Origin: Desulfuromonadales bacterium
GTDB lineage: Bacteria; Desulfobacterota; Desulfuromonadia; Desulfuromonadales; BM103
Direction: 5' to 3'
NCBI GenBank assembly: GCA_014860225.1
Contig: JACZKE010000052.1
Coordinates: 310,001 to 374,000, forward strand
DNA: 64,000 nucleotides
The position numbers and the translations under genes are program-made. The notes under the pieces are model-generated. The model saw only the letters and a list, made by a program, of their open reading frames with translations. It was not told the origin of the DNA and searched no databases. Shown piece by piece: positions 17,873-25,206 of the stretch (the stretch's first letter is position 1; the number at the start of each line of letters is the position of its first letter).

Positions 17873-19084
17873 TCAAAAAACTGTGAATTTTCCCAACTGA
17901 ATCTGTTCCATGAATAATTCCAGATGAGCCAGATCATCGGTGATGATTGCCGTGATCGGCCCTTCCAGATCATGGACGTGCACGCCGGGAAGTGGTTTGA
18001 CTTCGACACTCGTTACAACCGGCTGGCCGAGAGGATCACCGATCCTGCTGCACAGCCAAATGGTCAGTTCCTGGATACCGTCAACCGTTTCATAGACCTT
18101 GGCGGCCAGGCGATGACTGAGGATGTTGTAAATCTTTCCCGTATGGTTGACCGGGTTTTTACCGGCGGCCGCCTCGGTTGTTGACGGACGGTTGTAGGAG
18201 ATGACACCGTTGACGCGATTGCCGCGTCCAACTTCGCCGCTGTCGCCCGATTCGGCTGATGTGCCTAGCACCGTGAGATACATGCCGGCTTCGCCCTGGG
18301 CCGGATTGTCGAGACTGTTGATCTCGACGTTCACTTCAGTAAAAGGCATCTGCAGGCTGGCAATGTATCTTTTAATCTCGGATTGGAAAAACTGCTTTTT
18401 ATCGAAATAGTCCTGAGCGGTTTTAATAAATAAATCGACAAAGGCAATGGCTACGATTAGCTGCAACCTGTTCATGGAACGAATCCCCATGATTTTTATG
18501 TCTTCGCCACATTCCGGGAATGATTGCTTGAAGGTTGCGGAGTTCAGCCATTTTTCGACGGCCAGAACCACTTGTTCCGTCGGGCTCAGAGGCGCATAGC
18601 CGACACCGACCGATGTGTCATTGGCGCCGATCTCTTCACGCAGGAGGTTGTCGACCAGCTCTGAAGAACCGGGTCGGATTTCGTTCTGAAAGAGCATGTG
18701 AACCTCCGGATTGATGAACCGCAGGTTCTTTTTCAGCCAGGTTCCGGCAGCCTCTTGCGCAATCTCGCTGATCGGGATTTTGACGCCCTGAAATTCGGAG
18801 GTGGCCCGGTCGCCGAAAATAAACCGCATCGGCTCGACAATCGTGCCGCCACCGATTCGTGGATTGCTGCGCCCCGCGACCAGCAGACCCTTGTCAATGT
18901 TATGGTGAAGGATCCTGCCGAAGTTATCCTTGTAGACCCGGCACAATTGATTGCAGACTGATTCAACGATTCCGTCGCAGATCGAATCGGGGTGCCCGAT
19001 CCCCTTTCTTTCGACAATCTCGAATTGCTTGTCGCCAATTGCCGGATCATTCGATTTTGAGATAATGACGCCGATTCTATCCAT
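17873..19084 (-). CDS. Archaeal-type S-adenosylmethionine synthetase (methionine adenosyltransferase, AdoMet_Synthase family)
   Basis: IVERKGIGHPDSICDGIVESV, DKGLLVAGRSNPRIGGGTIVEPMRFIFGDRAT, GEVGRGNRVNGVI; start trimmed to MDRIGVIIS at 19084. Confidence 0.9.
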   Translation of the reverse strand: MDRIGVIISKSNDPAIGDKQFEIVERKGIGHPDSICDGIVESVCNQLCRVYKDNFGRILHHNIDKGLLVAGRSNPRIGGGTIVEPMRFIFGDRATSEFQGVKIPISEIAQEAAGTWLKKNLRFINPEVHMLFQNEIRPGSSELVDNLLREEIGANDTSVGVGYAPLSPTEQVVLAVEKWLNSATFKQSFPECGEDIKIMGIRSMNRLQLIVAIAFVDLFIKTAQDYFDKKQFFQSEIKRYIASLQMPFTEVNVEINSLDNPAQGEAGMYLTVLGTSAESGDSGEVGRGNRVNGVISYNRPSTTEAAAGKNPVNHTGKIYNILSHRLAAKVYETVDGIQELTIWLCSRIGDPLGQPVVTSVEVKPLPGVHVHDLEGPITAIITDDLAHLELFMEQIQLGKFTVF

Positions 19085-19415
19085 CGAGCGAATCCTCCTG
19101 CGCAGATCCACAGATCTTTCCATGTTTTCATCTCAAGAGATATTCCATGCATTCTCGTCAAAACCTGAAAAAAGTTTATGCGGCTTTGTTGGCTTGTCAA
19201 GATTCAGGAGGTTGCCAAGCTTCGAACCTACCGATTTAAATCAATAAATATCGTAATCTCTGTTGTCTCCATGCGGTTGTATGATCGGTTGAACGGTGGA
19301 TAAAAGCAGTGTTGCCTGTCTGCGTGAATCATCGGGATGGGAGTATTTTCTCTGATTCTTGATAGTGACCTGACAAGGTTTAGCATGTAAGCATGCTGAC
19401 AAGGGGGAGACGACA

Positions 19416-19588
19416 ATGCTCCTGTTGGATATTCAGGAATTGGCCATTGAAAAGAGTGATCGTTTCATTCTTGATGGGCTCAACCTGTCGCTGCCTGCTG
19501 GCGAAATTCATGCGCTGCACATTACCTGGCCCATGGCTTGAGCAGCGAAGATGCGGTCAGACTGGTTGTCGAAAGGATGTTGCATTAA
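19416..19588 (+). pseudogene. Remnant of an ABC-type (SufC-like) ATPase: N-terminus joined out of frame to C-terminus after an internal deletion
   Basis: Frame from ATG 19416: MLLLDIQELAIEKSDRFILDGLNLSLPAGEIHAL..; a second frame ends HGLSSEDAVRLVVERMLH* at 19588; nucleotide-binding core missing. Confidence 0.65.
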
Positions 19589-19641: not shown

Positions 19642-21411
19642 TCAATACGTCCTGTAAGAGTGACGAAGAATTTCGGCTTTAATATTTTCCCCGCCGCCGA
19701 AACGGCAATATGTGCCATCAGGATCGATGGGCAGACCTGCCGAACTGGCCTCATCAATGTCAATATGCATCTCTAACCGATAATCTGGACTGATCCGGAC
19801 CAGCACTTGACGGAATACCAGATCGCGCGACCCGCCAGTAATTGCCACCTCCACTTCGTCACCGCTATGGATGCCGAGGTGCTCAGCCTCTTCGTTCGAC
19901 ATGTGGATATGCCGCCTGGCACAGATCAGACCTTCGCTCAGATGCACTCTCCCCAAAGGGCCCTCTACGGTGATCGGCGCTGAACCATCGACCTGTCCGG
20001 AGGGGCGGACCGGGGCATCGACGCCGAGTCGAAACTCTTCATCACGGGTAATTTCTATTTGATCCCTTTCCCGCAGGGGACCCACCACACTTACCCCGTC
20101 AATGCGGTCGCGCGGTCCGATCAGGTTGACTCTCTCCCGGCAGACGTACTGGCCAGGCTGGAATGTCTCTTCTGCTTTGGTCAAACCGGCGTCCTTGCCG
20201 AAAAGTTGCTCGAAAGTTTCCCTGGAGAGGTGAACGTGACAGGGGTGGACGGCAATGGGTATCACCTTCCGTTCGGCAAATACACTCTGCGCATTGATCA
20301 CGGTTTCCGTCTGCCTGGCGATCATCAGTTCTTCATCGGTAGCTACTACCAGCGCCCGGACACGGGAGTGGTCAGCGCAAATTTCCGCCACCGGTTGTTC
20401 GTGGCTTACCCGGCAATCATTGTTGCGGTCATGATCTAACATGAGGCCGAGAAATTCGAGGCGCTGGAGGATGCGCCGACGCATCAGGACACTGTTCTCG
20501 CCGATCCCGCCGGTGAGAACCACGGCGTCGATGCCGCCCATGGTGGCAGCATAGGCGCCGATATACTTTCGCACCCGATGGGAAAACACAGCGATGCTGA
20601 GGCGGGCTCGCTCGTTCCCTTCGGCGGCCTTTGCCTCGATATCCCGCAGATCTTTGCTGATACCTGAGAGTCCAAGCAGACCGCTTTGCCGATTCAACAG
20701 GTGCTCAACTTCCTCTGTAGAATACCCTTTCTCCCGCACCAGCTTGAGGACTGCCGCTGGATCGATGTCGCCGCAGCGAGTGCCCATGACCAGTCCCTCC
20801 AGGGGGGTCATGCCCATGCTGGTTTCTGTCGAGGTACCGAACTCCACGGCACAGGCACTGGCGCCGTTGCCGAGATGGCAGGTGACCAAGCGCAGTTGAT
20901 TCGTCGCGCTGCCGAGATACTCAGCCGCTTTTTGAGCAACATAGGCGTGAGAGATGCCGTGAAAACCATAACGACGGATCTTCAGTGAGTCTGCCAGTTC
21001 GGCATCAATGGCATAAGTCAGAGCGCGGCGCGGCATGCGAGAGTGGAAGGCGGTATCGAAGACCGCCACATGAGGCACACCTGTCAGAATTTTTCTTGCC
21101 GCATTTATCCCTGTCAGGTTGGCCGGATTATGTAGCGGAGCGAGCGGGACACACGACTCGATCATCGCAAGCATGGCATTGTCGATTAGTTGAGGCATGG
21201 AAAAATGATCCCCGCCGTGTACCACACGGTGTCCTATCGCATCGATACGATAGCCCGAGACGGCGTCGGTAATATCTTTAAGAGCCTGGTCATAGGATTC
21301 TGCCCCGTTCAAGCGTTCAATCTTGCCTTTCACCAGGGCCGAAGAGGCTTCGGTGTCGACAACCTGATATTTGATGCTCGAAGAGCCACAATTGATTACC
21401 AGAACGTTCAT
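19642..21411 (-). CDS. Acetate kinase fused to C-terminal PduL-type phosphotransacylase
   Basis: N-terminal AckA motifs (NCGSSSIKYQ, GHRVVHGG, TCHLGNGAS, GTRCGDIDPA, ATDEELMIAR) followed by PduL motifs (HVHLSRETFEQLFG, PVRPSG, RRHIHMSNEEAEHLGI, MHIDIDEAS) in one 589-aa frame. Confidence 0.9.
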   Translation of the reverse strand: MNVLVINCGSSSIKYQVVDTEASSALVKGKIERLNGAESYDQALKDITDAVSGYRIDAIGHRVVHGGDHFSMPQLIDNAMLAMIESCVPLAPLHNPANLTGINAARKILTGVPHVAVFDTAFHSRMPRRALTYAIDAELADSLKIRRYGFHGISHAYVAQKAAEYLGSATNQLRLVTCHLGNGASACAVEFGTSTETSMGMTPLEGLVMGTRCGDIDPAAVLKLVREKGYSTEEVEHLLNRQSGLLGLSGISKDLRDIEAKAAEGNERARLSIAVFSHRVRKYIGAYAATMGGIDAVVLTGGIGENSVLMRRRILQRLEFLGLMLDHDRNNDCRVSHEQPVAEICADHSRVRALVVATDEELMIARQTETVINAQSVFAERKVIPIAVHPCHVHLSRETFEQLFGKDAGLTKAEETFQPGQYVCRERVNLIGPRDRIDGVSVVGPLRERDQIEITRDEEFRLGVDAPVRPSGQVDGSAPITVEGPLGRVHLSEGLICARRHIHMSNEEAEHLGIHSGDEVEVAITGGSRDLVFRQVLVRISPDYRLEMHIDIDEASSAGLPIDPDGTYCRFGGGENIKAEILRHSYRTY

Positions 21412-21689
21412 CCGATCTCCTTTTTCAGGTAGATATCCGGCTTTTGTCCGAGGCCTGATTGATGCCGGTTGGTTAGGAGCGAAGGTGTTTACTCCCAGTG
21501 TACCCGATTTTAAGAGGATTATTGAGATGGCCTAATTTGGTGGTAAGATTTAACATGCAAGTATGGTGAAAGTGGTTGATCTCTGATGGGTTTGGATAGC
21601 AGCGAGCATGATTATATTCCTTTATTCAAGGAGGCAGTAAGCTGTCGGAGATGCCTTTTATGTTGAAGTCCGGGTGTCTTTTGGCGCCG

Positions 21690-22048
21690 TTGTCCCTCAG
21701 GGGTGAGCCCGTATTGCAGGTCATAATTGGTTCCTCGGAAAGTGGCGGCAATGATCGCTACCAGCGGTGATGAATCGTTTGTCATGCTGTCGATGATTCC
21801 CGAAACTGCCGGGCTTATTTTCCTGTTCCTGTCCCGGTTAGCCTGACCATTTTCTGCACACCCACCTTTGGAAACACGTGGCCAAGGTTCCTGCCCTCCG
21901 CCTCTTTGCCTGGACATTTGGGGTGCTGCTGCTCATGCATGTTCTGGTGGATCACCTGCAATTGGGTAATTGGATGCAGAGCAATCAGCTGACCATGTTG
22001 CTGATTGCCTTCCTGGTGGGACTGGTGCCATCATTGTCTTCAGAATGA
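21690..22048 (+). pseudogene. Degraded membrane transporter (putative manganese transporter / PF11449-like) in broken frames
   Basis: One frame VAAMIATSGDESFVMLSMIPETAGLIFLFLSRLA*, next frame HLWKHVAKVPALRLFAWTFGVLLLMHVLVDHLQLGNWMQSNQLTMLLIAFLVGLVPSLSSE*. Confidence 0.5.
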
Positions 22049-22402: not shown

Positions 22403-23458
22403 TCAGTCCACGCAGCGGGTGAAAGCGGCCCTGACCATCCAGGCGATCAGCAGCAGGCCGATGACCAGAGTTCCCAGGAACAGCACCAGCGGTGAATATT
22501 CGGGGACGACTTCGAGCATCCCCGGCGAGAAATGGTCGCGCAGATAGCCGCCGCGAACAAAATCACGCATGAATGCCATCAAATAGATCAATCCAGCCAA
22601 CAGCCCTGCCGTTGCGTAGACCTTGCTTCTGAAGGCTGCGACCAGGACCATCGCGATCAGCAACAAGGCCGCCAGGAAGCAGGACGTTGCCAGGCCATTT
22701 CCCCCCATGAACAGCAGCATCTGCGCCTTCGGCAAGGCCAGCAAAAACCAGATTCCGATGCCGATCTGCACGATAGTCAGCATGCGGAAGACCTTCATGC
22801 CGATGGCTGACGCATAATCGCCCAGTTGCTGCTCCCGTCGTGTCAGAAAGCGGCCATAGAGCGCCACGAACAGGCCGCCGACAGCGGTACCGCCGATCAT
22901 GAAGTGGAGATAACGGGGCCAGAGCGTGGCATCCCCGGTGTTGAGCAGCGTGCCGCTGGAATTGTCGAAGTAGCCGCTCCAGTTTTCCGGATGCAGCATC
23001 ATCGTCATGTTGTTGCTGAACATGAAGCCGATGACGAGGAAACAGAGACAGGCGAAGCCAAGCACCAGGATGCCGGCTCGGCCCAGGGAAGCAAACTTGA
23101 AGTCATACCAGTAGGTTGCATAGTAGGCGATGATCAGAGTGGGGATGATCAGTATCCAGAACAGTCCCATGAGTACCGAGCTCGCGTAGATGAACTGGCC
23201 GTACAGGACCTGGAGGAACAGCAGCGGCGCAACGCCGAGGTTGACGGTCAAAGCGATGAGCAAGGGCAACACCTTGGCAAGTTCATATGCGAGCGCCCGG
23301 GCTTGCCGATCGCCCTTTATGTGGGCGTAGACTGCGATGAAGGACGATCCGAGCAGGGAGTTCATCAACAGCAGGTGCAGGGGGAACGTCAGCAACAGGA
23401 AAAACTGGAAGTAGCCCCAGGAGGTCGGAATAGTGTCAGGTGTGGGGATCAGCGACAT
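22403..23458 (-). CDS. Second membrane subunit of a cytochrome bd-like oxidoreductase (CydA'-like)
   Basis: Multi-TM protein MSLIPTPDTIPTSWGYFQFFLLLTFPLHLLLMNSLLGSS..., immediately downstream of the CydA-like/cytochrome c gene; start trimmed to 23458. Confidence 0.65.
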   Translation of the reverse strand: MSLIPTPDTIPTSWGYFQFFLLLTFPLHLLLMNSLLGSSFIAVYAHIKGDRQARALAYELAKVLPLLIALTVNLGVAPLLFLQVLYGQFIYASSVLMGLFWILIIPTLIIAYYATYWYDFKFASLGRAGILVLGFACLCFLVIGFMFSNNMTMMLHPENWSGYFDNSSGTLLNTGDATLWPRYLHFMIGGTAVGGLFVALYGRFLTRREQQLGDYASAIGMKVFRMLTIVQIGIGIWFLLALPKAQMLLFMGGNGLATSCFLAALLLIAMVLVAAFRSKVYATAGLLAGLIYLMAFMRDFVRGGYLRDHFSPGMLEVVPEYSPLVLFLGTLVIGLLLIAWMVRAAFTRCVD

Positions 23459-23460
23459 GA

Positions 23461-25206
23461 TCAACGGCCTCCTCTTTGCTCGGTAAGAATCCAGTCTGCA
23501 ATGGCCGCCCGTTCCTGCTCGTCCAGCGAGAGCCCAGCCATCATCGCATTCAGGCTGGCGAGGTTTGCCAGGCCACCGGTGATGTCTGTTTTCGACTTGT
23601 TCCCGGCCCAGTCCAGCAGGGTTTCCTTGCCATGGCAACCGGTGCAGTTCTGCTCGTAGACGGTCGCGCCGTCGATAACGGCAGGCGCCGCTGCAGAATG
23701 CAGATAACCGGCCAGCAGCAGCTTCTCTTCGGGTGTTCCGGTAAAGTCCGACATCATTTCATTCAGACTGCTCAGGGACTCGAGACCGGTGATGATCTCG
23801 GCGAGGGAGAGTCTCTCCGCCCATGTTTCAACAATATCGATGTCATGGCAACCGATGCAGTTGTCATTATAGATCTGCTGTCCCCGGTCGGTGGGCGTTA
23901 CGAGCGCGGCGAGATCAACCTCCCTGCCGTGGAGGTCGCCGGCAAGATACGCGGCGAGCGCCGCCGCTTCCATGTCGTTGCCGAGGAATTGTGGCATGTA
24001 CGGTCGCTTGTGGATGACGTTGCGCAGGTACGTGGTCAGTGTTGGGAAGTCCATGGCCGCCGTTCTTGGCACAATGTCATTATTGACTCCGCCGATCGTG
24101 TGGCAGGCATAGCACTGCAGCCTGAAGATTTCGCCCCCGGCCCGGGAGAGGTTTTCCGCGGTCGCTTCGTTGACGGCAGACCATTTCGCCTGGGCCAGGA
24201 AGCTTTGTCCTTGCAATGCGTCGGCCTGGGCCACGGTGATCCCGTGGGAGTACATGATCTGATTGAGAACGTAAGGGCGGCGTGCCGCTTCGCGCGTCCA
24301 TTCGAAAGACCCGAGCATAATGAATGCCGAGATCATGGCCAGTATCGCAAGCGGTTTGCTGTTGAGTGCCGGCCGGACAATGGTCAGCAGCAGGATCAGT
24401 GCGAAGGTGATGATCGTGGCGATCAGGGCATACTGACCTGCCGTCTGTATGGTGGGTGAACTGCCCAGGACCAGCTCATGGGCCGGTTCCGGCAGAATCG
24501 ACAGGTACCAATAACCGCACGGTAGCGCGAGCAGGAAGGAGATGAGCGACCACTTGCCGCTGTAGCGTGTCATGTCGGTTTTCAGTCTGGAGTCCTTCAG
24601 GAAGGCACTGGTCAGAAACGCGTAGAGACCGGCCAGCATGAAGGAGAAGAAGCTACGGAAAAACAGCGAGGGCCAGAACGACGGGTTGAAAAATCCGGAC
24701 CAGAAATTCCGATTGTCGAGCCACGCCCCGGGGGTCAGCATGAAATCGATAATACCGTTGATCAGGAACAGGCTGAGCCAGGCGGCAATAAAATAAATCC
24801 AGCCGATTAGCTGATGGGTCCGACTGTCCATCTTGTCGAAAGTGTAAAAGTAGATCAGCAGGGCGGTGATCTCGACCAGGAACCAGACCCACTCGGCCGC
24901 CCACCCGTAGACAAAGGTGTGGATCAACAGGGATGTGGCCGCCGGTTGAACCAGGGAGATGATGAACCAGATGCCGACCCCGGTAATCCCGCCGAAGACC
25001 ATCGTCAAGAGCAAGAAAAATTTGGTGTGGCTCTTGGTGAAAGCCAGGATCTCCGGTCTGTTTTCTCGCAGTCCTTTGCGTTCGGTCAGGACGAGATAGA
25101 GCCCGCCCCCCACAGCGAAGTGAGACACGAAGACATGGGTGACTGCTATCAGCGCAATCAGAAAGCCGCCACCGATTCCGGGAAGATACCAGACAGGATA
25201 GTTCAC
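23461..25206 (-). CDS. Cytochrome bd-like subunit I with C-terminal cytochrome c domains (three CxxCH)
   Basis: CydA-like TM region (HVFVSHFAVGGGLYLVLTERKG; FVYGWAAEWVWFLVEITALLIYFYTF) then CYACH, CIGCH, CTGCH motifs. Confidence 0.75.
   Translation of the reverse strand: MNYPVWYLPGIGGGFLIALIAVTHVFVSHFAVGGGLYLVLTERKGLRENRPEILAFTKSHTKFFLLLTMVFGGITGVGIWFIISLVQPAATSLLIHTFVYGWAAEWVWFLVEITALLIYFYTFDKMDSRTHQLIGWIYFIAAWLSLFLINGIIDFMLTPGAWLDNRNFWSGFFNPSFWPSLFFRSFFSFMLAGLYAFLTSAFLKDSRLKTDMTRYSGKWSLISFLLALPCGYWYLSILPEPAHELVLGSSPTIQTAGQYALIATIITFALILLLTIVRPALNSKPLAILAMISAFIMLGSFEWTREAARRPYVLNQIMYSHGITVAQADALQGQSFLAQAKWSAVNEATAENLSRAGGEIFRLQCYACHTIGGVNNDIVPRTAAMDFPTLTTYLRNVIHKRPYMPQFLGNDMEAAALAAYLAGDLHGREVDLAALVTPTDRGQQIYNDNCIGCHDIDIVETWAERLSLAEIITGLESLSSLNEMMSDFTGTPEEKLLLAGYLHSAAAPAVIDGATVYEQNCTGCHGKETLLDWAGNKSKTDITGGLANLASLNAMMAGLSLDEQERAAIADWILTEQRGGR

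Follow-up and report, generated by a model that had tools for sequence, protein, structure and literature searches.

A stretch of 64,000 nucleotides from a Desulfuromonadales genome, referred to here as the window, carries a gene that appears to join an acetate kinase (AckA) and a PduL-type phosphotransacylase in one polypeptide. The locus raises the question of whether this fusion is genuine and, if so, whether its transacylase half can still be regarded as an ordinary PduL.

Architecture and predicted structure of the fusion protein

The gene starts with ATG, preceded by a good ribosome-binding site, and runs for 589 codons without an internal stop, within a frame that stays open over 629 codons; its features are listed in Table 1. 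Pfam recognises PF00871 (E = 6.7e-134) followed by PF06130 (E = 9.5e-62, residues 386–560), and NCBIfam places TIGR00016 (ackA) at residues 2–369 and PRK15070 (PduL) at residues 384–560, both above cut-off. The domain search that the first-pass annotation proposed for these two families thus confirms the single-chain AckA–PduL architecture that it claimed, and every sequence motif that it quoted is present in the protein. The view that a sequencing or assembly error joined two separate genes has next to no probability, given the length of the single open frame and the fact that many independent genomes have the two domains joined in frame in the same way. Since relatives in many phyla keep the same domain order in one frame, a chance or frameshift join is ruled out, and the fusion is a genuine one rather than an assembly artefact.

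Table 1. Features of the fusion locus and its surroundings (window positions).
Feature	Position	Strand	Basis
AckA–PduL fusion gene, 589 aa	19642..21411	-	Single ORF, Pfam/NCBIfam domains, AlphaFold2 model, Foldseek matches
Ribosome-binding site AAGGAG	21417..21422	-	Few bases upstream of the fusion gene's ATG
Acetate/propionate kinase domain, residues 1–371	20299..21411	-	PF00871, TIGR00016, invariant catalytic residues
Inter-domain linker, about residues 372–381	20269..20298	-	AlphaFold2 model, low confidence at 376–380
PduL-type phosphotransacylase domain, about residues 382–560	19732..20268	-	PF06130, 5CUO alignment, Foldseek
H389-P390-C391 at PduL positions 45–47 (usually Ser-Ala-Arg/His)	20239..20247	-	5CUO alignment, PduL comparison
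Ser556 in place of CoA-contact Asn211	19744..19746	-	Asn in all 41 other domains with a residue there
S-adenosylmethionine synthetase gene, adjoining the fusion	17873–19123	-	AdoMet_Synthase family (PF01941)
Short ORF like an ABC-transporter ATPase N-terminal stub; probable pseudogene remnant	19416–19541	+	By eye; ends before Walker A
Short hydrophobic ORF resembling a membrane exporter fragment; possible pseudogene remnant	21878–22048	+	By eye
Membrane cytochrome pair	22403–25206	-	First protein: weak cytochrome bd subunit I similarity, cytochrome c domains; partner: no Pfam match

An AlphaFold2 model of the monomer, for which 14 homologous fusions were used alongside the window protein, has a mean pLDDT of 82.6 and a pTM of 0.63, with a weak linker at residues 376–380 and a low-confidence tail at 570–589. 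In Foldseek searches the front of the model matches acetate kinases with a target TM of up to 0.93, and the back matches PduL of Rhodopseudomonas palustris (5CUO) with a target TM of 0.95 and an rmsd of 1.2 Å, so that both halves are predicted to adopt the expected folds. In the kinase half, N7, R62, H179, R212, and E360 are invariant in an alignment of 15 fused proteins, in agreement with the intact AckA active-site motifs described earlier, and judged from its sequence this half appears intact. The N-terminal part is shorter than in an ordinary AckA, Pfam aligning profile positions 2–40 and 79–392 as separate stretches, and this shortening is common to the nearest relatives.

Altered contacts and faster evolution in the PduL half

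The PduL half was compared with 43 other PduL domains, with positions given in 5CUO numbering. All six zinc ligands (H48, H50, E109, H157, H159, and H204) are kept, as are R103, Q107, S127, and R194, including the phosphate-positioning pair R103 and S127. The CoA and acyl contacts are different. It has been reported in the study on R. palustris PduL that S45, K70, R97, L99, H204, and N211 contact CoA, and that Ser45 and Ala154 line a proposed acyl pocket (PMC4784909). Five of these six CoA-contact positions differ in the window copy, with H204 as the only one kept; the changes relative to 5CUO are S45H, R47C, K70E, R97S, L99V, and N211S. Other PduLs also vary at K70, R97, and L99, which are not strictly defining, and this leaves S45H and N211S as the private changes among the CoA contacts. 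Of the 43 other domains, 42 carry Ser at position 45 and all carry Arg or His at position 47; the window copy has His and Cys there, adjacent to H392 and H394, the first zinc ligands. Ala154 of the proposed acyl pocket is retained as A498. The unusual first PduL motif, HPCHVHLS, which had been flagged as a possible cause of altered activity or substrate range, therefore proves unusual against this set, and the case goes further than first suggested, since Ser45 lines the proposed acyl pocket and additional CoA contacts are changed. Membership of PF06130 stands by sequence and fold; the standing of the domain as a fully typical PduL is lowered, and its full activity should not be taken for granted. 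The fusion from Magnetominusculus LBB02 (L044:5995-7830) likewise has a PduL half that diverges strongly while keeping its metal ligands; it departs at 12 of 52 conserved columns, one of the changes, read by eye, being R103 to K.

The PduL half of the window copy has also evolved faster than its counterparts. In the PduL tree its terminal branch is 0.85, compared with 0.32 for the relative L037 and 0.34 for the sister sequence L038, about 2.5 times the rate of the sister, while in the kinase tree the branches are 0.36, 0.42, and 0.49, respectively, so that the kinase half is not faster. Unique substitutions in the window protein, L037, and L038 number 31, 38, and 48 in the kinase half and 36, 24, and 15 in the PduL half (Fisher p = 0.003); the three sequences are distant from each other, which makes this a contrast in rates that does not prove a relaxation of selection. 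No close orthologue turned up that could tell whether purifying selection acts on the altered PduL residues.

Genomic setting and distribution

The fusion's PduL domain is the only one in the genome. Separate AckA and Pta lie near each other on contig C11, and a second PTA_PTB domain occurs in a longer frame on contig C53; because of this separate pair, the pathway does not need the fusion protein. There is no match to the BMC shell family PF00936 in the genome, and a microcompartment role for the fusion was rejected for this reason. Rfam gave no RNA element in the window. In the one stretch of a same-genus genome that was compared, the S-adenosylmethionine synthetase gene is the sole gene in common; this PF01941 protein has a match in 3 of the 20 other relatives searched, one of them from the same genus at 70% identity, and the first protein of the cytochrome pair was found in 1 of 20.

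More than 20 homologues share the AckA–PduL fusion, many of them from other phyla, with the closest showing about 57% identity across their length. PduL matches occur in 14 of the 277 class genomes that were searched, and the kinase fusion was seen only in the window's own genome; the other matches are mostly stand-alone or in frames of 452–463 aa, and the seven such frames that were inspected over their whole length all carry another fusion. In the window's order, for instance, L126 has a 460-aa frame combining a cobalamin adenosyltransferase-like domain (PF01923) with PF06130, and similar frames are present in L122–L124, L128, L129, and L131. In a sample of the phylum, the kinase fusion occurs in at least 8 of 14 other PduL-bearing genomes (L132–L139; L137 partly masked). 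Fusions are also found in genomes or metagenome-assembled genomes labelled Myxococcota, Granulosicoccaceae, Chitinophagales, Neolewinella, and Syntrophaceae, as well as Magnetominusculus, Rhodobacteraceae, Zoogloea, Azonexaceae, and Spirochaetes. Such a patchy distribution would fit horizontal transfer. The surroundings differ at each homologous locus that was inspected, by eye or by motif, and an operon or phosphoketolase context was sought there and not found.

Some relatives contain a further domain. A cyclic-nucleotide-binding domain (PF00027, E about 1e-17) precedes acetate kinase and PduL in L043:5500-7824 and L051:5512-7812; the same three-domain form is recognised by sequence in L044, L045, L047, L050, and L053, and possibly in L132, L133, L135, L138, and L139, which are cut at the locus end. 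This arrangement suggests second-messenger control of acyl-phosphate metabolism. A literature search on cyclic-nucleotide-domain acetate kinase–PduL proteins returned nothing, and these relatives are of more interest than the window copy.

Possible function and comparison with known systems

Taken together, the protein is probably, in our moderately confident view, a bifunctional enzyme of the cytosol, gained by horizontal transfer, with a transacylase half that is altered or relaxing. At the C-terminus, the di-zinc PduL half would convert acyl-CoA and phosphate to acyl-phosphate and CoA, and back again, and the N-terminal kinase half would interconvert acyl-phosphate plus ADP with acid plus ATP; acyl-phosphate might be channelled between the halves. 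Transacylase activity may be reduced or altered, as the CoA and acyl contacts of PduL are changed while the metal and phosphate centre is kept. The acyl range is probably limited to small groups such as acetyl, since His389 is expected to leave less room in the proposed acyl pocket.

The main competing explanation is that the PduL half is relaxing, because a separate Pta and AckA are present: the protein would then be only a second acetate/propionate kinase, supplied with acyl-phosphate by the separate Pta. The confinement of faster evolution to the PduL half, the replacement of N211, otherwise invariant, and of S45, nearly so, the separate pair itself, and the pseudogene-like debris near the locus are consistent with decay, but random decay would be expected to strike the metal and phosphate residues too, and the six zinc ligands and phosphate contacts are kept, with no stop codon and a confidently modelled PduL fold; we regard this explanation as possible but rather doubtful. 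The same pattern of kept and changed residues could instead mean that the acyl/CoA pocket has been remodelled around a retained metal/phosphate site, so that the domain would either be a transacylase acting on a new range of substrates or serve the kinase as a non-catalytic regulatory module; this seems unlikely. A more specific form of repurposing, in which the PduL half senses acyl-phosphate or phosphate, for example, or works with a non-CoA thiol, and regulates the kinase, draws on the retained metal and phosphate site and the changed CoA contacts as well; the gene neighbours of the relatives are not conserved, however, and none points to a different partner, which leaves it quite improbable.

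The architecture is not novel, having already been published: Erbilgin et al. (2016) noted acetate kinases that carry a fused PF06130 domain and put forward the idea of channelling (PMC4784909), and the accessible part of their paper reports no assay of such a fusion. The first-pass annotation had allowed that the architecture might already be characterised; it had indeed been noted, and a literature search that left most subscription papers outside its scope returned the 2016 note only and no biochemical assay. A paper on a Pelomyxa symbiont treats PduL as a substitute for Pta and, in its accessible part, mentions no fusion. What is new here is the local divergence of the PduL half in the window copy, the architecture and the channelling idea being known. 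The fusion is of interest as a single-chain form of a central energy-conserving pathway and as a direct test case for the acyl-phosphate channelling proposed in 2016, and the window copy as a naturally occurring variant from which the PduL determinants of CoA binding and acyl range can be learned; otherwise it is ordinary as a genomic observation.

Compared with acetate and propionate kinases (PF00871; for example PDB 2IIR, 1G99, and 1X3M), the fusion has the same catalytic residues and NCGSSSIK start, but a shorter N-terminal region and an added C-terminal PduL domain. It shares with R. palustris PduL (5CUO/5CUP) the fold, the six zinc ligands, Arg103, and Ser127, and differs from it in being fused to a kinase and in the six substitutions given above. 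The separate Pta and AckA of the same genome carry out the same overall reaction, but with two genes and an unrelated transacylase family (PF01515). Like the fusions of Erbilgin et al., the window copy combines acetate kinase with PF06130 and has no encapsulation peptide; unlike them, it shows changed contacts for CoA and the acyl group in its PduL half.
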